A program made the translations under genes and the position numbers. A stretch of DNA of 34,870 nt. It comes from a virus. The stretch's first letter is position 1; the number at the start of each line of letters is the position of its first letter. Where the stretch lies: positions 1-34,870 of IMG/VR virus record IMGVR_UViG_3300021962_000337; one strand, 5' to 3'. The notes under the pieces are model-generated. The model was given only the letters and a program-made list of their open reading frames with translations. It did not search any database and was not told the origin of the DNA. Shown here one piece after another: positions 518-34,870 of the stretch.

Positions 518-3500
518 ATGGCAATTAGTAATCTATTAACAGGAAGGGTAAGGGTAGTTTCACCTAAAAATGTAACGCAAGAAAGGTATCAGTTTTTGGA
601 CTTATCTCAAGCTGAACCAAATTTAGGTGTCCCAAATTTCTCAGCATCTCTTTCTGGTTCTCCAGCTATCGTAGTTTCGGATGACCAGGGTAATAGAGGA
701 TTTGTAAGAAGTTTGGATTTAGATAGAGTAACTGGACAATTTACAGGTTCATTTACTGGTAGTGCAACATCTTTGAGTGGTAGCTTCTCTGGCTCTTTTA
801 CTGGTTCATTTATAGGTGATGGTTCTCAATTAGTTAATTTACCTGCAGCAACTTTTATAGCAAGTGGTTCGGCAACTGCATCTTTTAAAGAAGGTAATTT
901 AGTAGTAAATACAAATACAAGAGTTCAAGGTGACCTTTATGTTGATGATACAATTTATGCGGAAAGTATAATTGTAAATTATATTTCATCTTCTGTAATT
1001 TATTCATCAGGCTCAAACGTATTTGGAGATAATTATACCGATACACAACAATTTACTGGTTCTGTATTAGTTAGTTCATCTATTATTGTAAATGATATTA
1101 CTGCATCTCAATCTATTACTGGTTCATTTACTGGTTCATTTTTTGGTGATGGTACAAATTTATTCAATTTACCTGAAGCAACAAAATTAGCAACAGGTTC
1201 AATAACTGCATCTGTTTCACCTCAATTTGGATTTAAGGTAGAATCAATAGGTACTGGTTCTCAATTTACTGGAAGTGTTGATATTAGTGGTAGTTTATTT
1301 ATAAAACCATATAGTGGTTCTATTCAATTAGCAACAGGTTCATCTTATTATGGAGAAGGTAGATACCTTAGAGAAATACCTCGTTCAGCATTAACGGAAG
1401 ATGCATTAATATCTACCGAAATTAAAAGTGGTAGTGTGACCGCATCGGTAGCACCAAATTTTGGATTTAAAGTAGAATCGGCAGCAAGTGGTTCTAGAAT
1501 TACAGGTAGTGTATTTGTTACTGGTAGTATGATTATAACAGCTACTAGCGGTGCATTAATACTTGGTTCATCATCAGCATATTTTGGTGAAGGTACTTAT
1601 TTACGAAATATTCCTAGAAACGCACTTACTGAAGATGCGTTAATCTCAACTGAAATTAAAAGTGGTAGTGTAACTGCTTCTGTTTCTCCTAATTTTGGAT
1701 TTGTAGTAACATCTGTTGCTAGTGGTTCTAAATTTACTGGTTCTCTTTTTGTAAGTGGTAACATTCAACTTGGACAGGGTTCAATTTATTCTGGTAGTGG
1801 TGCTGGATTATTTGATATTCCATTATCTGCATTAGCAGAGGAGGTTGTAGCAGCTACAAGAATACAAACAGGTAGTGTAACTGCATCTGTATCTCCTGAA
1901 AGAGGATTTCAAGTTATTTCTGTTGCTAGTGGTTCTCAATTTACTGGTTCTATATTCATAACTGGTAGTGGTGTTGAGTTATCATCAGGTTCATTTAGTG
2001 GTAGTGGTGCTAGATTATTTAATATTCCTAAAACAGCAATTTCTGATTTAGATACATCATTAATATTCTCTAGTTCATACACAGCATCTATTAATCCTGA
2101 CCACGGATTCAGAGTTAATACTCGTTCAACAATTAGTGGTAGTTTTGTGGTGTCATCATCCGCAGAACCTTTAGCAACATCATCAATACCAAATTATTTT
2201 TATGTAACTAATATTGGTGCATCATCATATAATTTCGATGGAGCTGCGTCTGGACAAGACCCTATATTGACTTTAGTTAGAGGAGTAACTTATCAGTTTG
2301 AAGTAAATGCAACAGGTCATCCTTTTTACATAAAAACAGCTGGAGTAACTGGAATTGGTTCTCAATATACAACTGGTGTTTTAAATAATGGAACTGCAAG
2401 TGGTTCTGTATATTTTACTCCACCATCTGGGTCTCCTGATACATTATATTATATATGTCAGTTTCATAGTGATATGTCTTCATCTATCAACATAGTTGAT
2501 AATCTATATTTACAAGATAGAATTTTATTTGAAGGAAATACTGCAATTAGTGGTGGATTATATGTAAGAGATTATGTAAGAGCAAGAGAATTTACTGGTT
2601 CATTTAGTGGTTCATTATTTCAAGGTGATGGTGGTGGATTATTTAATATACCACGTTCGGCTTTTACCGGAGATGCGTTTAGAATTGCATCTGGTTCGGT
2701 AACTGCATCAACTACACCTGATTTTGGATTTAGAGTAGAAACATCGGCAACTGGTTCAGCATTTGGTTCGCAATTTACTGGTTCGGTTGATGTAAGTGGA
2801 AGTGTTCAGGCGTTTGCTGTAAGTGCATCTATTATATCTGGTTCATTCTTTGGTGATGGTAGTAATTTAAGAAATGTACCATCGGAAGTATCGAATAGAA
2901 TTTCAAGTGGTAGTGTAACAGCATCGGTAAACCCAGATGGGGTTGGTTTTAAAGTAGAATCTGCACAATTTGGTTCTAGATTCACTGGTTCATTATTTAT
3001 TAGTGGTGGTGGTATATTTTTAGAAAGCGGTTCATCCTACTCTGGTAGTGGTAGATTCCTTTATGATATTCCTCGTTCTGCTTTATCATTTGATATTAGT
3101 TTAATAGCAAGTGGTAGTGTAACAGCATCAGTATCACCAACGTATGGTTTTAAAGTAGAATCTGCTCAAAGTGGTTCACGCTTTACTGGTTCTTTATTTG
3201 TAAGTGGTGGTATCTATGTAAAAAGTGGTTCTCATTATTCTGGTAGTGGTAGATATTTGTTTGATATACCTGCTGCAGCAATTTCTGATTTAGATACTTC
3301 AAAAATATTTAGTGGTAGTGTTACTGCATCTGTATCTCCTGATTTTGGATTTGTTGTGAATTCCGTAGCAAGTGGTTCTAGAATTAGTGGTAGTTTGATT
3401 GTTAGTGGTTCATCACGCTTCTTTATGGGAGTATCTGCATCAGTATTTAGTGGTAGTGGTGCGGGTTTAACTGATATTCCATTTTCAGCACTTTCACAAG

Positions 3501-6500
3501 AATTATTTAGAATTGCTTCTGGTTCTGTAACAGCATCTGCATTGCCTGATTTTGGATTTAAAGTAGACTCGGTAGCAAGTGGTTCACAGTTTACTGGTAG
3601 TGTAGCTATAAGTGGTAGTTTAAGAATAACAACAACTTCTGGTTCATTGATATTAGGTTCTTCATCTGCATATTTTGGTGAGGGTACTTATTTAAGAAAT
3701 ATACCTAGAAACGCCTTATCCGAAGATGCACTTATTAGTACTGAAATTAAATCAGGTTCGGTAACCGCATCAGTTTCTCCTAACTTTGGATTTGTTGTAA
3801 AATCCGTAGCAAGTGGTTCATTCTTTAGTGGCAGTGTTAGAGTTAGTGGTAGTTTATATGTAGAAACTGGAAGTGTTTATTATGGAGATGGTAGTGGATT
3901 AACAAATATCACTGTTGCTAATTTAGCAATTGATGCAACAAAAATATTTAGTGGAAGTGCAACGGCATCCATTTCACCTGATAGAGGATTTCAAGTAAAT
4001 ACGTTTTCTAACATTAGTGGTAGTTTTATAGTATCATCTTCTAATAGAGAAGTATTAACATCTTCATTATTTCCTGTTTATAATGTAACGGCTGATGGAA
4101 GTAGCGCTTATATATTTAGTGGTTCGATTCAAGGTTCAAATCCAACAATAACGTTAGTAAGAGGAGTTCAGCATGTATTTAACATAAATGCATCAGGTCA
4201 TCCATTTTATATTAAAACTGTACAATCAAATGGTACGGCTAACGCATATAATACAGGTGTAACAAATAATGGTACTGATAGTGGTATTATTTTATTTACA
4301 CCACCATCTGGCTCACCTAATACTTTATATTATAATTGCCAATTACATTCATCAATGGCTGGTGTATTTAATGTTGTTGATGCAATAGTAATACCTGCCG
4401 AAATTAAATTTATTGGAGATACTAAAATAGAAGGTACATTAACTGCTTCAATGTATAGTGGTAGTGGTAGAGGATTATTTGATATTCCTCGTTCAGCATT
4501 ATCGGAAGAAGTATTTAGAGTAGCAAGTGGAAGTGTATCAGCATCAGTTGCTCCTGATTTCGGATTCAAAGTAGAATCGGAGGCAAGCGGTTCTCAACTT
4601 ACTGGTAGTTTACAAGTTACAGGTAGTATCTATATGTACGCTACAAGTGGAGCATTACTTCTTGATTCATCTTCTAATTTCTTTGGTGAAGGTAGATATT
4701 TAAGAAACATACCTCGTTCAGCTTTAACCGAAGATGCATTGGTATCATCTGAAATCAAATCTGGTTCAGTAACCGCATCGGTTTCACCTGATTATGGATT
4801 TATAGTATTAACACCATTTACATCTTCATTGGGTGAAAATGGAGCATTTACCGCATCAATAGCATCTCAATTTACTGGTTCTATATCTGTATCTGGTAGT
4901 TTATTTGTAAGTGATACAAGTGGTGGTTTGTTCATTGAATCATCATCATTCATATATGCGGAAGGTACTTATTTAAGAAATATACCTCGTTCAGCTTTAA
5001 CTGAAGATGCGTTATTATCATCATTCATTGTGTCTGGTTCAATAACAGCATCTGTAACTCCTGATGAAGGATTTAAAGTTATTACTGATAGAACAGGTTC
5101 TCAATTGGGTTCTCAATTTACTGGTTCAATTGAAGTTAGTGGTAGTATTAGAGCAACCGATTTCTTATTTGGTGATGGTAGATTTATTACTAACGTACAA
5201 GCTGCAGCAGCTCCTTTAATAGCAAGTGGTTCAGCAACTGCATCGGTAGCAAGTGGTGAATCATTTATAGTAAAAACTGCAAAGACTGGTTCTCAAATAG
5301 GTTCTGAATTTACTGGTTCAGTTAGTGTTAGTGGTTCATTATACGCATCTGATTTTATATTTGGTGATGGTAGATTTATTACTAATGTACAAGCGGCAGC
5401 AGCTCCATTTATCGCAAGTGGTTCTGCAACTGCTTCGGTAGCAAGTGGAGATACACTTATTGTTGTAACATCTGCTACTGGTTCACAATATGGTTCTCGT
5501 TTCACTGGTTCAATAGATGTTAGTGGAAGTATTAAAGCATTCTCATTTGTTGGAGATGGTTCTCAATTAACAAATGTACAAGCAGCAGCATCTCCATTAA
5601 TATCAAGTGGTTCTGCAACAGCATCGGTAGCAAGTGGTGAAAGATTTATAGTAGAAACATCACCTGCATCTGGTTCATATAAATCACAATTTACATCATC
5701 GGTAGCAATTAGTGGTTCAATCACAGCATCACTTTATTATGGTGATGGTGGTGGCTTATTTAACATTCCACCTGATGCGATTGAAAACTTAGAGTTATTT
5801 AAAATCAACTCTGGTTCTGGTGTTGCTATTATTGACCCAACTAAATTAGATGTAAACGTTCCAATCACTGCTGCAAGATACGATGGTGATGGTAGTGGAT
5901 TATTTAATATCCCACCTGAAGCGTTAGATGATTTAAAAATTGATAGAATCCAATCTGGTTCAGTAGAAGCTGTAATTTCTCCAAACAAAGGATTACAAAT
6001 CGGAACTAGAACATTTGTATCTGGTAACTTAAGTGTTACTGGTTCATTGTTTGTAAGTGGTGGAAACATTGTGGCAAACTCTGGTTCTGTTTTCTTTGGA
6101 GATGGTAGTGGTTTACGAAACATTAATATTGCTAATTTATCATTTGAAACATTCATACTAAAGAGTGGTTCTGCAACTGCATCTATTTCACCTGATAACG
6201 GATTTGTAGTTAATACATCTTCATTTGTTTGGGGTGATTCTTATGTTGATAGAAGATTAAGAGCAAATGAAATTACAGCAAGTAATTATCTATTCTCTCC
6301 ATTAGTTAGTGGTTCGTTCTTAGGTACATATAATTTCCAAGGAGTTGGACCAACTGCATCTGCAGAATATGATATTTTAAGATTTGATGAAGTAAGAGGC
6401 TATTTTATACCTCAACCTGAAACATCATTAACTGAAACTGTATCGTTTAGCAATGTAAGTAATTTAACAATTGTACACAACTTAGGAATTTTATATCCTA

Positions 6501-9500
6501 TGGTTCAGGTGTACGCAACTGGTTCTGAAGACCAGATTATACCTGGTACAATTAAATCAATTGATGAAGATACAATTCAAATTATATTTGCTGGATTAAC
6601 TTCTGGACATGTTGTAATTGGTAGTGGTGGTTCGTTAATCAATGGAACGGTAAATGGTGATAGAGTATTTGGAACAGTATTATCAGCATCTCATGCGGTT
6701 AGAGCAGATATAGCAGATGCAGTAACTGGATTTGATTCAGCATCATTATCAGCATTATCTGCTTCATTAGCAAATGCAAATGAATATGTAAGAAATAATC
6801 AAACATCATCAATGGCGGTGTTTAGTGCAGTAAGTTCATCTTACGCATTAACCGCATCTTATGCTTTAAATGGTGGGGGTGGTGGTACTGATTTGTTTGT
6901 ATATCATACAAGCTCATTAGTAAAATCACAAGTTGCAAAAATAAACTTTAGTGGTTCTGGTGTAGATGTAATTGCATCTGGTTCTGATGGTATATTGGTA
7001 ACAATAAACGGAGGAGCAGCTCAAAGTTCTGAAACAGCATCTTATATCTTATCAACTGGTGTGGATGGTCCGTTAGGAATGAATAGTATTTATTACGCTA
7101 TTACTTCATTAACTGCATCTTACGCATTAAATTCGGCAAATACTGATACATCTTCATTCTTAAACATTAATACTGACCAAAAAATAAATGCATCACTTAT
7201 TATTAGTGGAAGCTTGGGAGTTAGTGGTAGTGTTTTCTTTAGTAGTAGTATAGCATTCCAAAGTTTACCTTCTGGCTCATCCAATGAAGTTGTAATTTGG
7301 GACCCGGTAACTAAGAGATTAGCATATAGAAACGTAGCGGCAGCAGTAGGTTCTTCTGGAACTGGTGGTACTTCTGGTTTTAATGGTTCGTCTGGTTCTT
7401 CTGGAACTTCTGGTTCAAGTGGTACTAGTGGAGTTGATGGAACATCTGGTTCATCTGGTTCATCTGGTAGTAGCGGTACTAGTGGAGTTGATGGAACTTC
7501 TGGAAGTAGTGGTTCATCAGGAAGTAGTGGTTCGTCTGGTTCAAGCGGAAGTAGTGGTTCGTCTGGTTCATCAGGAACATCTGGCACTTCTGGTTCAAGC
7601 GGAAGTAGTGGTTCATCGGGAACATCTGGAACTACTGGTTCAAGCGGAACGAGCGGCTCATCTGGTTCAAGTGGTTCTTCTGGAACATCCGGCACATCGG
7701 GAACTTCTGGAAGTAGTGGTTCAACCGGTTCAGCTGGAACTTCTGGCACATCTGGTTCTTCTGGTACTTCGGCAACTTCTGGAACATCTGGTTCAAGTGG
7801 AAGTAGTGGAAGTAGTGGCAGTAGTGGAACAACCGGTTCGTCTGGTACGTCAGGAACTTCTGGTAGTAGTGGAACATCCGCAACAAGTGGTACTTCAGGA
7901 ACTTCTGGAACAAGTGGTAGTAGTGGTACTCAAGGTACATCTGGTTCGTCTGGCACAAGTGGAACGTCTGGTACATCGGGAACTTCTGGTTCAACTGGAA
8001 CTGGTGGTACATCTGGCACATCAGGTACAAGCGGTTCATCTGGTTCATCTGGTAGTGGTGGTAGTTCATCAACAGCAGGTACAGGTGGTACGTCTGGTAC
8101 TTCGGGAACTTCTGGTTCAACTGGTACGGGAGGTACATCGGGTACGTCTGGTGAAGATGGAACTTCGGGAACATCAGGCACATCTGGTAGTAGTGGTGAG
8201 GCTGGTACATCTGGTACGTCAGGAACTTCTGGTACAAGTGGTACTTCTGGAAGTGGTGGGACATCAGGTTCATCTGGTAGTAGTGGAAGTAGTGGTTCGA
8301 CTGGTTCAGCTGGAACTTCTGGTTCTTCTGGAACAAGTGGAGAAGATGGTACATCAGGTTCATCCGGCTCATCTGGTAGTAGTGGAACAACTGGTTCGTC
8401 TGGTTCATCTGGCACATCTGGTAGTAGTGGTACTTCAGGAACGTCTGGCACATCAGGAACTTCTGGAAGTTCTGGAAGTAGTGGAACAACAGGTTCTTCG
8501 GGTACGTCTGGGTCTTCTGGAACTGCTGGTTCTTCTGGAGTAGATGGTACATCGGGAACTTCTGGCACGTCTGGTTCAAGTGGAACTTCTGGTACAACAG
8601 GAACTTCTGGAAGTAGTGGAACTTCTGGAAGTAGTGGTTCTGATGGAAGTAGTGGTTCGTCTGGTTCATCCGGTTCTGCTGGTTCATCCGGTTCGGCTGG
8701 AACTAGTGGAACGGCTGGCTCTTCTGGTACAACGGGTTCGTCTGGAACGGCTGGCTCTTCTGGAACGGCTGGTTCTTCTGGAACTGATGGTAGTACGGGT
8801 TCAGCTGGTAGCACAGGTTCTGCTGGTAGTAGTGGAACTGATGGTACAACTGGGTCTTCTGGTTCATCTGGAAGTTCTGGTACTAGTGGAATAGATGGAA
8901 CATCTGGAACGGACGGAAGTAGTGGTACGTCTGGGTCTACGGGAACTGATGGTACTTCAGGAACAACTGGCTCATCGGGTACAACTGGTTCGTATGGTAC
9001 TTCGGGAACATCTGCAATAGATGGAACTTCTGGTACTGATGGAAGTAGTGGCACGTCTGGGTCTACGGGAACTGATGGTACTTCGGGAACAACAGGTTCG
9101 TCTGGAACAACAGGTTCAACAGGAACATCGGGAAGTAGTGGTACAAGCGGCACTGATGGTACAAGCGGTACGGATGGTTCAACAGGTTCAGCAGGTTCAT
9201 CTGGGTCATCTGGTTCTTCTGGAGAAAGTGGTACAAGCGGTTTAGATGGAACTTTCTTTGGAAGTAGTGGTTCATCTGGAACGGATGGAACGTCTGGTTC
9301 ATCTGGCACAAGCGGAAGTAGTGGTACAAATGGTACTTCAGGCTCTTCTGGTTTAGATGGAACTTTCTTTGGTAGTAGTGGTACAGCAGGTACATCGGGA
9401 ACTTCCGGTTCATCTGGCACAAGCGGAAGTAGTGGTACAAATGGTACTTCAGGTTCGTCTGGTTTAGATGGTACATTCTTTGGAAGTAGTGGTTCATCTG

Positions 9501-10867
9501 GTTCAAGTGGTACGGGTGGTACAAGTGGTGAAGATGGAACTTCAGGTTCATCTGGTTCAAGTGGTTCGTCTGGAAGTTCTGGATTAAATGGTACATTCTT
9601 TGGTTCATCTGGTTCAAGTGGTTCATCTGCAACTTCTGGTACAAGTGGAAGTTCGGGTGAAAATGGAACTTCTGGAATTGATGGTACATCGGGTTCTTCT
9701 GGAAGTAGTGGATTGGATGGAACATTCTTTGGTTCTTCTGGAACTAGCGGAAGTACAGGTACGGCCGGCTCATCGGGAACCAATGGTACAACTGGTACGG
9801 GCGGTTCTTCGGGAACTTCTGCTACCTCTGGTAGTTCGGGATTAAATGGTACATTCTTTGGTAGTAGTGGTACATCCTCAACATCAGGTACATCTGGTTC
9901 AAGTGGTTCTTCTGGAATTAGTGGTACAGATGGCACATCTGGTTCAAGCGGTACATCTGGTTTAGATGGTACATTCTTTGGTACAAATGGTACATCGGGA
10001 ACTAGTGGAACAAATGGAACAACAGGTACGGCTGGTTCATCTGGGTCTACGGGAACTGATGGTACATCTGGTACAACTGGTACATCTGGTAGTGGAGGAA
10101 CATCTGGTTTGGATGGTACATTCTTTGGAAGTAATGGAACATCTGGTACAAATGGTGCTCTTGGTAGTGATGGACAAGATGGTACATCTGGTACGTCTGG
10201 AACATCATTCAATGGAGTAACTTCTGGTACTTCTGGTACAAATGGTATTAGTGGCTCTAATGGAACTTCGGGTACATCAACACCTGGAATTACTTCTGGA
10301 ACATCTGGAACTCCTGGTATTAGTGGTACATCTGGAACTTCTCCTGCTGGATTTAGTTCTGGTACATCTGGTGGAGCTGGTACTAATGGTACTTCTGGTT
10401 TTACAACTATTAGTGGTACAACTGATAATGGTGTATTAACTTTAGAAGGTTCATCACCAAATGTTAGAGCAGAATCTAATATGTTATTTGATGGTAGTAC
10501 ATTAACTGTAACAGGAAATGTAATAGTAACAACTTCAGTAGCAGCAACAACATTTAGAGAAACGTACTCCGACCAAGGTACTGGTGGTAGTGTAACTTTA
10601 GACCTTTCAACCGCAAATAATTTTAGAAGACAATTCAATGGTTCGGCAACTATTTCATTCAGTAATCCTCCAGCATCAAATGCATTTGGATTTACATTCG
10701 TAATGGTTAATGCTGGTACATATTCAATAACATGGCCTGGTTCAATAGATTGGGTAGGTGGTACATCTCCAATTTTAACATCAACTGGAACTGATGTATT
10801 AACATTCTTTACATTTGATGGTGGTACTACTTATTATGGATTTGTTGTTGGAAAAAATCTTAGTTAA
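518..10867 (+). CDS. Giant collagen-like tail fibre (fibre A) with two cupredoxin-like domains
   Basis: A 3449-residue virion fibre, probably host-contacting. Residues 1-60 form a non-repetitive N-terminus (RVVSPKNVTQERYQFLDLSQ), a likely attachment region. Residues about 115-1895 carry about 22 copies of a module opening with SGSVTASVSPxFGF, followed by FTGSxxVSG and GDGSGLxNIPRSAL segments. Two cupredoxin-like domains interrupt this array (residues about 562-662 and 1188-1288). Residues about 1965-2045 include an IVHNLGILYP element common in phage fibres. Residues about 2278-3295 are almost pure Gly-X-Y with Ser/Thr in X and Y. The last 150 residues form a beta-rich tip with SITWPGSIDW and a closing GFVVGKN stretch, like many phage fibre tips. 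No S74 chaperone is present here. Start: GGAAAG lies 8 bases before the ATG. The fibre assignment is strong; the receptor is unknown. Confidence 0.9.
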   Translation: MAISNLLTGRVRVVSPKNVTQERYQFLDLSQAEPNLGVPNFSASLSGSPAIVVSDDQGNRGFVRSLDLDRVTGQFTGSFTGSATSLSGSFSGSFTGSFIGDGSQLVNLPAATFIASGSATASFKEGNLVVNTNTRVQGDLYVDDTIYAESIIVNYISSSVIYSSGSNVFGDNYTDTQQFTGSVLVSSSIIVNDITASQSITGSFTGSFFGDGTNLFNLPEATKLATGSITASVSPQFGFKVESIGTGSQFTGSVDISGSLFIKPYSGSIQLATGSSYYGEGRYLREIPRSALTEDALISTEIKSGSVTASVAPNFGFKVESAASGSRITGSVFVTGSMIITATSGALILGSSSAYFGEGTYLRNIPRNALTEDALISTEIKSGSVTASVSPNFGFVVTSVASGSKFTGSLFVSGNIQLGQGSIYSGSGAGLFDIPLSALAEEVVAATRIQTGSVTASVSPERGFQVISVASGSQFTGSIFITGSGVELSSGSFSGSGARLFNIPKTAISDLDTSLIFSSSYTASINPDHGFRVNTRSTISGSFVVSSSAEPLATSSIPNYFYVTNIGASSYNFDGAASGQDPILTLVRGVTYQFEVNATGHPFYIKTAGVTGIGSQYTTGVLNNGTASGSVYFTPPSGSPDTLYYICQFHSDMSSSINIVDNLYLQDRILFEGNTAISGGLYVRDYVRAREFTGSFSGSLFQGDGGGLFNIPRSAFTGDAFRIASGSVTASTTPDFGFRVETSATGSAFGSQFTGSVDVSGSVQAFAVSASIISGSFFGDGSNLRNVPSEVSNRISSGSVTASVNPDGVGFKVESAQFGSRFTGSLFISGGGIFLESGSSYSGSGRFLYDIPRSALSFDISLIASGSVTASVSPTYGFKVESAQSGSRFTGSLFVSGGIYVKSGSHYSGSGRYLFDIPAAAISDLDTSKIFSGSVTASVSPDFGFVVNSVASGSRISGSLIVSGSSRFFMGVSASVFSGSGAGLTDIPFSALSQELFRIASGSVTASALPDFGFKVDSVASGSQFTGSVAISGSLRITTTSGSLILGSSSAYFGEGTYLRNIPRNALSEDALISTEIKSGSVTASVSPNFGFVVKSVASGSFFSGSVRVSGSLYVETGSVYYGDGSGLTNITVANLAIDATKIFSGSATASISPDRGFQVNTFSNISGSFIVSSSNREVLTSSLFPVYNVTADGSSAYIFSGSIQGSNPTITLVRGVQHVFNINASGHPFYIKTVQSNGTANAYNTGVTNNGTDSGIILFTPPSGSPNTLYYNCQLHSSMAGVFNVVDAIVIPAEIKFIGDTKIEGTLTASMYSGSGRGLFDIPRSALSEEVFRVASGSVSASVAPDFGFKVESEASGSQLTGSLQVTGSIYMYATSGALLLDSSSNFFGEGRYLRNIPRSALTEDALVSSEIKSGSVTASVSPDYGFIVLTPFTSSLGENGAFTASIASQFTGSISVSGSLFVSDTSGGLFIESSSFIYAEGTYLRNIPRSALTEDALLSSFIVSGSITASVTPDEGFKVITDRTGSQLGSQFTGSIEVSGSIRATDFLFGDGRFITNVQAAAAPLIASGSATASVASGESFIVKTAKTGSQIGSEFTGSVSVSGSLYASDFIFGDGRFITNVQAAAAPFIASGSATASVASGDTLIVVTSATGSQYGSRFTGSIDVSGSIKAFSFVGDGSQLTNVQAAASPLISSGSATASVASGERFIVETSPASGSYKSQFTSSVAISGSITASLYYGDGGGLFNIPPDAIENLELFKINSGSGVAIIDPTKLDVNVPITAARYDGDGSGLFNIPPEALDDLKIDRIQSGSVEAVISPNKGLQIGTRTFVSGNLSVTGSLFVSGGNIVANSGSVFFGDGSGLRNINIANLSFETFILKSGSATASISPDNGFVVNTSSFVWGDSYVDRRLRANEITASNYLFSPLVSGSFLGTYNFQGVGPTASAEYDILRFDEVRGYFIPQPETSLTETVSFSNVSNLTIVHNLGILYPMVQVYATGSEDQIIPGTIKSIDEDTIQIIFAGLTSGHVVIGSGGSLINGTVNGDRVFGTVLSASHAVRADIADAVTGFDSASLSALSASLANANEYVRNNQTSSMAVFSAVSSSYALTASYALNGGGGGTDLFVYHTSSLVKSQVAKINFSGSGVDVIASGSDGILVTINGGAAQSSETASYILSTGVDGPLGMNSIYYAITSLTASYALNSANTDTSSFLNINTDQKINASLIISGSLGVSGSVFFSSSIAFQSLPSGSSNEVVIWDPVTKRLAYRNVAAAVGSSGTGGTSGFNGSSGSSGTSGSSGTSGVDGTSGSSGSSGSSGTSGVDGTSGSSGSSGSSGSSGSSGSSGSSGSSGTSGTSGSSGSSGSSGTSGTTGSSGTSGSSGSSGSSGTSGTSGTSGSSGSTGSAGTSGTSGSSGTSATSGTSGSSGSSGSSGSSGTTGSSGTSGTSGSSGTSATSGTSGTSGTSGSSGTQGTSGSSGTSGTSGTSGTSGSTGTGGTSGTSGTSGSSGSSGSGGSSSTAGTGGTSGTSGTSGSTGTGGTSGTSGEDGTSGTSGTSGSSGEAGTSGTSGTSGTSGTSGSGGTSGSSGSSGSSGSTGSAGTSGSSGTSGEDGTSGSSGSSGSSGTTGSSGSSGTSGSSGTSGTSGTSGTSGSSGSSGTTGSSGTSGSSGTAGSSGVDGTSGTSGTSGSSGTSGTTGTSGSSGTSGSSGSDGSSGSSGSSGSAGSSGSAGTSGTAGSSGTTGSSGTAGSSGTAGSSGTDGSTGSAGSTGSAGSSGTDGTTGSSGSSGSSGTSGIDGTSGTDGSSGTSGSTGTDGTSGTTGSSGTTGSYGTSGTSAIDGTSGTDGSSGTSGSTGTDGTSGTTGSSGTTGSTGTSGSSGTSGTDGTSGTDGSTGSAGSSGSSGSSGESGTSGLDGTFFGSSGSSGTDGTSGSSGTSGSSGTNGTSGSSGLDGTFFGSSGTAGTSGTSGSSGTSGSSGTNGTSGSSGLDGTFFGSSGSSGSSGTGGTSGEDGTSGSSGSSGSSGSSGLNGTFFGSSGSSGSSATSGTSGSSGENGTSGIDGTSGSSGSSGLDGTFFGSSGTSGSTGTAGSSGTNGTTGTGGSSGTSATSGSSGLNGTFFGSSGTSSTSGTSGSSGSSGISGTDGTSGSSGTSGLDGTFFGTNGTSGTSGTNGTTGTAGSSGSTGTDGTSGTTGTSGSGGTSGLDGTFFGSNGTSGTNGALGSDGQDGTSGTSGTSFNGVTSGTSGTNGISGSNGTSGTSTPGITSGTSGTPGISGTSGTSPAGFSSGTSGGAGTNGTSGFTTISGTTDNGVLTLEGSSPNVRAESNMLFDGSTLTVTGNVIVTTSVAATTFRETYSDQGTGGSVTLDLSTANNFRRQFNGSATISFSNPPASNAFGFTFVMVNAGTYSITWPGSIDWVGGTSPILTSTGTDVLTFFTFDGGTTYYGFVVGKNLS
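2201..2503 (+). other. Cupredoxin-like domain 1 inside fibre A
   Basis: Residues about 562-662 of fibre A. They contain ILTLVRGVTYQFEVNATGHPFYI, then FTPPSGSPDTLYY and CQFHSDM. The candidate type 1 copper ligands are H601, C647, H650 and M653, arranged H-x45-C-x2-H-x2-M, close to the plastocyanin/cupredoxin arrangement. The domain interrupts the SGS module array. Copper binding is inferred from ligand retention only. Confidence 0.7.
4079..4382 (+). other. Cupredoxin-like domain 2 inside fibre A
   Basis: Residues about 1188-1288 of fibre A form a second copy of the domain at 2201. It has ITLVRGVQHVFNINASGHPF, then LYYNCQLHSSMAG. The four candidate copper ligands are H1228, C1274, H1277 and M1280, with exactly the same spacing as in copy 1. 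Outside the ligands the two copies differ at many positions, so this is not a recent exact duplication. Confidence 0.7.
7349..10400 (+). repeat. Collagen-like Gly-X-Y repeat block of fibre A
   Basis: About 1000 residues in which Gly recurs every third position, mostly GTS and GSS triplets, with rare Asp, Ala, Asn or Glu and almost no Pro until near residue 3265. The last third (from 9240) contains eight LDGTFFG or LNGTFFG interruptions. The DNA is built from ggt/gga aca/act/agt tct/tca words, which creates long antisense and out-of-frame open frames that are not genes. Confidence 0.92.
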
Positions 10868-18900: not shown

Positions 18901-20785
18901 AGGAAGTGGTGGTGATTTTTACGCAACTATTTTCTATGATACAAATAATACTGGATATTATTGTGACCCTGCTTCTACGAATAGATTAAACTTTGTAAAC
19001 TCAAACAACCACTATATTCAACCTGGTTATATGTTGTATAGTGATAGTGGTGGTTGGACTGGTGAATATAATAAAATACAATGGCATAGTTCCCACATGT
19101 ATTTCCAAAAAATGCAAGAGGGATATTGGATATTCAGAAGACCTTCTGGAGCCGAACCGCATCTATTTGCGGTAGATGGTAACTACTATAACTCATATAT
19201 GGGTTGGATGAGTAACTACATTAACCAAAATGTTAGAACCGATGCTTCTCCAACTTTCTATGACCTTTATGTAAACGGATGGTTTAGAAATAACACAAAC
19301 GGACATGGTCTATATAACCAAAATAGAGGAATGCACTGGTACACCAATAATGGATATTGGAAATCAGCTGGTGGTGGATATGGATATGGTGGTATTGTAA
19401 TGTACAATAACTACGAATCTGATTTAAGAGGATACTCTGGATATTGGGATGGTAGTGGATTTGGTATGTTAAATAGTTCTGGTAACTGGCAAATTCGTAT
19501 TGAATATGGTAACGCTCACATGGAGTTGTATCGTATTACTTATATGAACGATGCTAGAGCATACATTTACTATGATAGAGATGATACTGGATACTATATT
19601 GATTCTAACTCTCGTTCTCAATGGTTGGGTTTAACTGATAGAGGTAAGGGTAATATAGGTCTAAGTGGTAAATCAAATTATAGAAGACCTCAAGATTATA
19701 CAGGTGATAGAAACTATTGGACAGGTGCTGAAGGTTGGGGTACTACTGACTTTAACTGGACAATGGATTGGGGTTCTGGATTTAATGATTCTTGGTCTAA
19801 CCCAGGTAACCAGCCTCCTGGTACATCTCACTGGTTGACAGCACAAGCTTTCCACTACTCTTGGACTTATGGTGGTGGTTATGGTTGGCAATTGACTGGA
19901 GGACCTGTTGATAGATTATGGTTTAGAAACTCTTGGTCATCTCCATCGGGATGGAAAGCACAAGTCGATTCAAATAACAGAGGAGAATATTGTATTCCAA
20001 CATACGATTATAACCACTATTCAAGAGTTTACTTTACTTACAATAGAGGATACTACGCAACTCAAACCGATTCGGCGATGTTGCAACCATATTCTACTGG
20101 TAATAATGGTGCGTTCATGTCATTCCACAAAGGTGGTTACTATGCACTTAACTTAGGTTTGGATGGTGATAACGTTGTAAGATGGGGTGGTTGGTCTTCT
20201 AGATGGCAGAGATACTATTTGAATGATGATACATTGGGTACTCCTTATGTATTACGTTCAAACTTTGATAACTATGGTGGTGGTGGTGTATGGGTATCTG
20301 ATGATGGTGACCTTTGTGATTTGAACGATGGTTACTTAGCATTAAGAGCATCTTATGGTTTAAGAATACATACTGGTAATAGAGGGGGTGGTGCTACTAT
20401 CGCATTAAGATATGATGGACAAATTATTGCATCAAATAATATTATTGCGTATGGTTCTCCATCGGATAGAAGATTAAAAGAAAATTTAAAACCTTTAGAA
20501 AATTCATTAGATAAAGTAATGAAAATGAGAGGTGTTGAATTCGATTGGAGAGAGGGTACTGATGAATACGAAACTACTGGATTGAGACATGATATAGGAT
20601 TTATAGCTCAAGAAATTGAAGATATAGTTCCTGATTTAGTTAGAGCAGGCGAAGATGGATATTTAGCAGTTAGAGATAGAGGTATCCCAGCATTGTTATT
20701 AGAAGCTATCAAAGAATTAAAAGGTGAATTAGATGAAGCTAAGGCTGAAATAAAAAATTTAAGAGAAAAATTAGGGTTTGAGTAA
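12917..20785 (+). CDS. Giant tail fibre with collagen-like blocks and C-terminal S74 chaperone (fibre B)
   Basis: A 2622-residue fibre. Residues 1-225 share SGS-type shaft modules with fibre A ([31 protein letters not shown]). Residues about 228-558 are collagen-like; about 559-675 form a globular insert ([20 protein letters not shown] and onward); about 676-814 are collagen-like again. Then [13 protein letters not shown] modules follow, with repeated MNQNVRTTD elements, and from about residue 1230 eight YDxNNTGYYxDP repeats in an aromatic, Gly/Asn-rich body. Residues 2516-2622 are a Peptidase_S74 intramolecular chaperone with [12 protein letters not shown]. In this family the Ser/Lys dyad drives self-cleavage just before the Ser, after trimer folding. 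A short coiled coil ends the protein. It is the last gene of its operon. Confidence 0.92.
13598..14592 (+). repeat. Collagen-like block 1 of fibre B
   Basis: About 330 residues of Gly-X-Y, richer in GSG and GGT triplets than fibre A. Long identical words recur inside the block, such as [11 protein letters not shown]. The end is abrupt, at GGTSGQSGG followed by the globular insert. Confidence 0.9.
14945..15360 (+). repeat. Collagen-like block 2 of fibre B
   Basis: About 139 residues of Gly-X-Y restarting after the globular insert, with more Ala (GSA, GTA triplets) than block 1. It leads directly into [17 protein letters not shown], the module that also follows the collagen block of fibre A. 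Confidence 0.9.
16606..19640 (+). repeat. Eight YDxNNTGYYxDP repeats in fibre B
   Basis: The motif (I/M)(F/M/Y)YDxN(N/D)(T/S)GYYxDP recurs near nucleotides 16622, 17096, 17516, 17849, 18224, 18628, 18934 and 19570. It separates variable aromatic-rich segments of about 100-210 residues. Examples are [17 protein letters not shown] and [17 protein letters not shown]. The repeats probably mark conserved trimer-forming shaft joints between variable surface modules; this is inferred. Confidence 0.8.
20462..20785 (+). other. Peptidase_S74 intramolecular chaperone domain and cleavage point
   Basis: Residues 2516-2622 of fibre B begin [12 protein letters not shown], then [46 protein letters not shown]. 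The candidate catalytic Ser is S2516 and the Lys is K2521. Cleavage is expected just before S2516, releasing about 107 residues. Confidence 0.9.
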
Positions 20786-34608: not shown

Positions 34609-34609
34609 T

Positions 34610-34640
34610 TTGGTAGTTTAATTATTTTTTCGTATATTTG
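34610..34640 (+). promoter_or_regulatory. Bacteroidetes-type promoter for the tmRNA
   Basis: TTG at 34610-34612 and TATATTTG at 34633-34640 with 20 bases between them match the Bacteroidetes primary-sigma consensus (TTG ... TAnnTTTG). The predicted start is only a few bases before the tmRNA 5' end at 34654. This suggests host RNA polymerase makes the tmRNA independently of the TATTTATA-marked genes. Confidence 0.65.
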
Positions 34641-34653
34641 TATTTATTAATAT

Positions 34654-34870
34654 GGGGGTGACTTGGAATTGATTACAATGAGAATTGTAGTATCACACGT
34701 AGACAGAAGTGCTAGATGTCTTTAAATCTGTACAAAACAATAACTGACGTAGAATTATCTACTTGGAGCTTCGAAGATGCTATGGCATTTGTAGGAGCTT
34801 ACGATTACGCTGTAGCAGCCTAATCACCTCCCGCATCACTCGTGGGATTTAAATAGAAGTGAACAAACCG
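34654..34870 (+). ncRNA. ssrA: Phage-encoded tmRNA (3' part beyond the window)
   Basis: The 5' end GGGGGTGACTTGGAATTGAT fits the tmRNA acceptor stem and D-loop analogue. TTACAAT-GAGA-ATTGTAG forms the next hairpin. A pseudoknot is possible: TATCAC (34691-34696) with GTGCTA (34709-34714), one mismatch, crossed by ACAGA (34703-34707) with TCTGT (34727-34731). An A-rich spacer follows, then an open tag frame ending GAYDYAVAA and TAA at 34821-34823, close to the standard tag end YALAA. A hairpin TCCCGC/GTGGGA follows the tag. tmRNA with SmpB rescues stalled ribosomes and marks the unfinished protein for proteolysis. The 3' acceptor half must lie past 34870, so the end cannot be checked here. Confidence 0.88.

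Follow-up and report, generated by a model that had tools for sequence, protein, structure and literature searches.

A phage-encoded one-piece tmRNA whose 25-residue tag apparently joins a conserved phage-specific extension to a host-like degron

The window analysed here, a stretch of viral DNA of 34,870 nucleotides, ends in a gene that a sequence-only reading took to be a phage tmRNA with an unusually long tag frame. Is it a tmRNA, where on it does translation resume, and what kind of tag does it encode? A tmRNA releases stalled ribosomes and marks their incomplete proteins for degradation. Phage tmRNAs are usually seen as spare parts or as remnants of integration sites. They were listed earlier (PMC4131195) and occur in 402 of 18,146 phage genomes (PMC9004378), and tags in the tmRNA database are most often 10 amino acids long (PMC11915505). 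Window positions 34654–34870 carry the 5′ part of a phage-encoded one-piece tmRNA with a 25-residue tag, a reading to which we assign a probability of about 0.92. The features that define the gene and its surroundings are:

34609–34640, plus strand: Bacteroidota-type promoter-like sequence, TTTGG at 34609–34613 and TATATTTG at 34633–34640, 13 nt before the gene start; the arrangement recurs in relatives
34654–34870, plus strand: 5′ part of a one-piece tmRNA (ssrA) gene, ended by the contig end; assigned from the relatives' complete genes with ARAGORN and Rfam RF00023
34654–34660, plus strand: 5′ arm of the acceptor stem, GGGGGTG, read from the sequence; in relatives it pairs with CACCTCC at the 3′ end, including G3-U70
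34824–34862, plus strand: helix 5, TCAC 34824–34827 pairing with GTGA 34859–34862 and, apically, CCCGC 34830–34834 with GTGGG 34842–34846; found in folds of the window, L008 and L016

The window's own cut-off copy is neither called by ARAGORN nor matched by Rfam, and the tmRNA claim is borne out by complete copies in relatives. Over the 217 nt of the window gene, two loci, L008 and L011, show 98.2% identity and each hold a complete tmRNA of 388 nt; L011 is also about 85% identical upstream of the gene. Relatives that extend past the window's cut are called as tmRNA by ARAGORN, and the complete ones match RF00023 with 66–86 bits (E 6e-24 to 3e-32) against a gathering score of 47, a range that widens to 66–108 bits with further complete genes. 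The tRNA-like 3′ half expected downstream is present in relatives that are 98% identical, while that of the window copy lies beyond the contig end: the window supplies the 5′ arm, and the acceptor stem, G3-U70, T arm and 3′ half are read in L008, L011 and others alone. As in other one-piece tmRNAs, the tag frame is open, has a small hydrophobic end and reaches its stop codon at helix 5. A 30-mer from the window tmRNA has exact matches in 68 viral contigs and none in the contigs of an 84,980-species genome collection.

The sequence upstream of the gene resembles the Bacteroidota promoter consensus and may act as a promoter. A TANNTTTG box lies within 60 nt upstream in 47 of the 178 loci that have that upstream stretch, and 42 of the 47 show the arrangement of TTG, 20 nt and TATATTTG, in most of these 42 with the box 13–14 nt before the gene start.

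The position at which translation resumes can be read from two further elements:

34701–34733, plus strand: pseudoknot 1, stem 1 AGACA 34701–34705 with TGTCT 34717–34721, stem 2 GTGC 34709–34712 with GTAC 34730–34733; the pairing is kept across relatives
34734–34745, plus strand: 12-nt spacer with the resume-setting element, ending in AATAACT, its A at −4 being 34742; placed by the element in relatives and the E. coli rule

The pseudoknot had been placed roughly correctly, with its end near 34731, although it actually closes at 34733. Its pairing is preserved despite strong sequence divergence: among 63 distinct segments there are 27 forms of stem 1 and 33 of stem 2, and the mean pairing score is 22.2 compared with 10.2 in shuffles. 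The resume codon of E. coli tmRNA follows pseudoknot 1 by 12 nt and A86 by four (PMC2481249). Counting in the same way, GAC 34746 stands 12 nt after the pseudoknot with A at −4 and T at −5. The number of loci with A at −4 is fixed by the search pattern and was excluded as proof; we used instead the in-frame [AG][TC]AA[AC]NG element, which lies immediately 5′ of the long frame in every one of the 168 loci that the tag motif retrieved. The first residue of the tag varies (D, A, V or G) while its distance from AATAA is constant, and the ARAGORN long-tag calls in relatives start near nt 93, corresponding to GAC 34746 of the window. The resume codon is therefore GAC 34746. The proposal of a long frame from at or near GTA 34749 was right as to the frame and one codon late as to its start, since GTA itself is preceded by T at −4 and stands 15 nt from the pseudoknot; likewise the open frame and its stop at TAA 34821 hold, with 25 codons rather than 24. 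The other proposal was that translation resumes at GGA 34794, so that the tag is the nine-residue GAYDYAVAA and the preceding 48 bases (45 as first described) are an insertion in the spacer. This tag does resemble those of the hosts, and ARAGORN reports short tags (ANEYALAA, ADEYAYAA) in a few relatives; in the closest relatives of the window, the program also reports spurious tags further on, such as VNKPEHYLSAP. However, GGA 34794 has T at −4 and is 60 nt past the pseudoknot, the resume element precedes GAC in all relatives (168 of 168 tag-motif loci have it before the long frame), the supposed spacer is conserved as protein, and a start there with ordinary spacing did not arise from the RF00023 covariance model. 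We regard resumption at GGA as very improbable.

Read from GAC, the tag has the following parts:

34746–34823, plus strand: tag reading frame, 25 codons and TAA 34821, encoding DVELSTWSFEDAMAFVGAYDYAVAA; defined by the resume element, the sequence and ARAGORN in relatives
34746–34793, plus strand: conserved, apparently phage-specific tag extension of 16 codons, DVELSTWSFEDAMAFV; defined by protein-level conservation and by the absence of the motif from Bacteroidia genomes
34794–34820, plus strand: host-like degron end, GAYDYAVAA; defined by alignment to the host-type GENNYALAA (shuffle p 0.002)

The same alignment upholds the protease-recognition style of the end (AVAA) pointed out earlier. 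A family of such tags was gathered by four further pattern scans and by one that required only the resume element and the end of the tag. It comprises at least 214–215 viral loci, 214 being the core-pattern count, and at least 62 distinct tags of 23–26 amino acids (22 of 23 residues, 34 of 24, five of 25 and one of 26), and related long tags are borne by very divergent tmRNA bodies. The pattern blind to the extension recovered, among the matches listed, 48 distinct in-frame tags, 45 of which have the extension; the three exceptions, two related 27-residue tags and one 18-residue tag, belong to other tmRNAs that score 75–88 bits in Rfam. The tag has no match in 50,697 phage records or among PDB sequences. 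In one locus of the family (L209:2916-3332) a GOLLD RNA (276.8 bits) adjoins the long-tag tmRNA and a large tRNA cluster.

The hosts are likely to be Bacteroidota, and the unusual length of the tag stands out against their tmRNAs. RF00023 matches above the cut-off were obtained in 91 of 99 Bacteroidia genomes, and ARAGORN called tags in 76 of 90 Bacteroidia loci, all of 8–10 residues compared with 25 in the window, mostly GENNYALAA-like and resuming at nt 90–99; one of the 76, DQVDKLNSVP (nt 130), is probably false, and the other 14 loci, with no call or a late false call, fall outside the tag-length count. The core motif of the tag occurs in none of 395 Bacteroidia genomes. Given this absence, the short Bacteroidia tags and the conservation at the protein level, the tag is apparently a host-like degron preceded by a conserved, seemingly phage-specific extension of about 16 residues.

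Selection on the extension was assessed with 56 distinct nucleotide tags, among the matches listed, from a pattern that leaves the extension columns free. Summed entropies at codon positions 1, 2 and 3 are 6.7, 5.5 and 15.6 bits, so that third positions are about 2–3 times as variable as the first two, and insertions and deletions are in-frame only. Comparing all pairs by the Nei-Gojobori method, which are non-independent and uncorrected for kinship, gives a pN/pS of 0.34 and a dN/dS of about 0.23. The two other reading frames run into stops in 56 and 39 of the 56 tags. Folding the aligned tag region gives no more stability than codon-column shuffles do, as 34 of 100 shuffles are just as stable. 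Judged from these alignments, the extension evolves as a protein and without a conserved RNA structure. In four loci (L278, L283, L247 and L282) the tag ends in DEATFA instead of Y-A-x-A-A with the extension unchanged; this persistence alongside an altered degron suggests that the extension is selected in its own right.

The frame might instead be a small protein gene and no tmRNA tag at all (MSLNLYKTIT-DVELSTW..., from ATG 34716), and the window and its close relatives do have an in-frame ATG 30 nt upstream of the tag. That stretch is pseudoknot 1, however, complete relatives match the tmRNA model, and 73 of the 119 distinct upstream regions show an in-frame stop with no start codon before the tag, so that an ordinary open reading frame is impossible there. 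This reduces the idea to practically nothing. A passive copy of a host tmRNA, retained as an integration site, deserves hardly more credit: phages use tmRNA genes as attachment sites, a subject taken up for phage Panino (PMC11590407), but here the gene is whole and has its own promoter-like sequence, the tag is unlike bacterial ones, and a tyrosine integrase was not found in nine related records of up to 274 kb. A more serious alternative is that the extension is functionless: tag templates would tolerate a change of length, a long one was inherited, and its end still works as a degron. Tag templates in E. coli can be changed while barely affecting tmRNA function (PMC2481249), unrelated long tags occur in other phage tmRNAs, and neither a partner nor a structure was found for the extension. 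Against this stand the two- to threefold excess of third-position variation, the dN/dS of 0.23, the in-frame indels and the retention of the extension on very divergent tmRNA bodies, and we consider the absence of any function unlikely. Since a large group of related phages has retained it at the protein level, the extension probably does something.

A likely course of events in the infected cell can be sketched. The tmRNA would be charged with alanine and bound by SmpB of the host; since 13 related records, possibly incomplete, yielded no smpB, host SmpB probably serves. Stalled ribosomes of the infected cell would then be freed, with the nascent chain receiving the 25-residue tag, and the final residues, which seem to imitate the Bacteroidota ssrA degron, would direct the product to the Clp protease of the host. 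Our best guess, held tentatively, is that the extension of about 16 residues precedes the Clp degron as a recognition element for some phage or host factor and alters the manner, place or speed of processing of tagged proteins. Equally tentative is its role as a phage-specific address by which a dedicated phage or host factor redirects, speeds or delays degradation during infection. The recognition role is a guess, because three kinds of test came out negative: the hydrophobic moment does not indicate a significant amphipathic helix in the extension, local alignment to other long phage tags gives no significant match, and a search for the motif elsewhere in the family loci returned only truncated copies of the same tag. 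If the extension is an address, the phage rewrites the quality control of ribosome rescue, beyond supplying more tmRNA. One of nine related records, the 182,846-base record of L204 (L570), has a ClpP-family ORF at 19430–19912 (E 1e-26), which could be a head-maturation protease.

The rest of the window carries contractile-tail genes and related records reach 274 kb, so these phages appear to be large myophages. Relatives of the window's tail sheath are found in Flavobacterium phage immuto, Microcystis phage Mel-JY01 and a 484-kb uncultured phage. The sheath of Mel-JY01 (PP395634.1 31986–34403, L571) stands nearer to that of the window (about 48–52%) than do the listed Synechococcus phage sheaths (35–38%), and the named host of this phage may deserve a check. 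At 518–10867 the window has an ORF of 3449 amino acids with long collagen-like repeats and tail-fibre matches. Maribacter phage Panino was considered as a cultured relative and rejected; its annotated tmRNA (PP540027.1 27557–27889, L072) overlaps tRNA-Asp and tRNA-Thr and is probably spurious.

A literature search with limited coverage of subscription journals found no description of this long-tag tmRNA family. It may be under-reported, because ARAGORN reports wrong tags for several of the genes, including the window's closest relatives. A large family with a conserved extension absent from the examined Bacteroidia tags implies that the tag itself is selected in the phage.

Long phage tags as such have a precedent in the annotated mycobacteriophage tmRNA (Bixzunavirus, e.g., Shifa, MT889395), which is also a one-piece molecule with a 25-residue tag, ATDTDATVTDAEIEAFFAEEAAALV, and a resume position near nt 95. 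Unlike the window tag, it lacks the AA end and belongs to phages of different hosts, and its similarity to the tags of the window family is not above shuffles (p 0.19 and 0.28). Long tags are also not common to all phage tmRNAs, as Enterococcus phage vB_Edu_21C1 has an ordinary 10-residue tag, AKNEELLAVA. The tmRNA of the 484-kb uncultured phage (L574:1501-1947; LR756508.1 92434–92880; 72 bits) has a 36-codon frame, GVNNADYESAGFTAEDFAQMDGESLYHGSERKPAAV, which begins at the expected resume position, nt 97, after ATCTATAACT; this is a single sequence, and a pattern scan found no relatives of its tag. Another viral tmRNA (L438:2569-2988 and L442:1577-1996; 75.5 bits), missed by ARAGORN, has an apparent 18-residue tag, ENVKSLIFGSRTAYAVAA. 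Profile tests of the extension for homology to the mycobacteriophage, 484-kb phage, L410 and L438 tags gave p values of 0.10–0.31. The viral tmRNAs at L404:2510-2936 and L410:2733-3156 (RF00023 88 and 87 bits) are like the window family in combining a long extension with a host-like degron in 27-residue tags, VKSQSERVAEGEAILASIFASEYALAA and VKSQSERVEEGASIIAMAFASEYALAA (VKSQSERV...ASEYALAA), but the similarity of their extensions to that of the window is within chance and their records are without the window's tail sheath. The tmRNAs of the Bacteroidota hosts, of the GENNYALAA type, share the architecture of the window family, its resume position (nt 90–99) and similar last residues. The third residue from the end is L or M in 40 of 42 distinct host tags and V in 32 of the 62 distinct phage tags listed, and the host tags differ above all in being 8–10 residues long, without the extension that precedes the degron in the phages.
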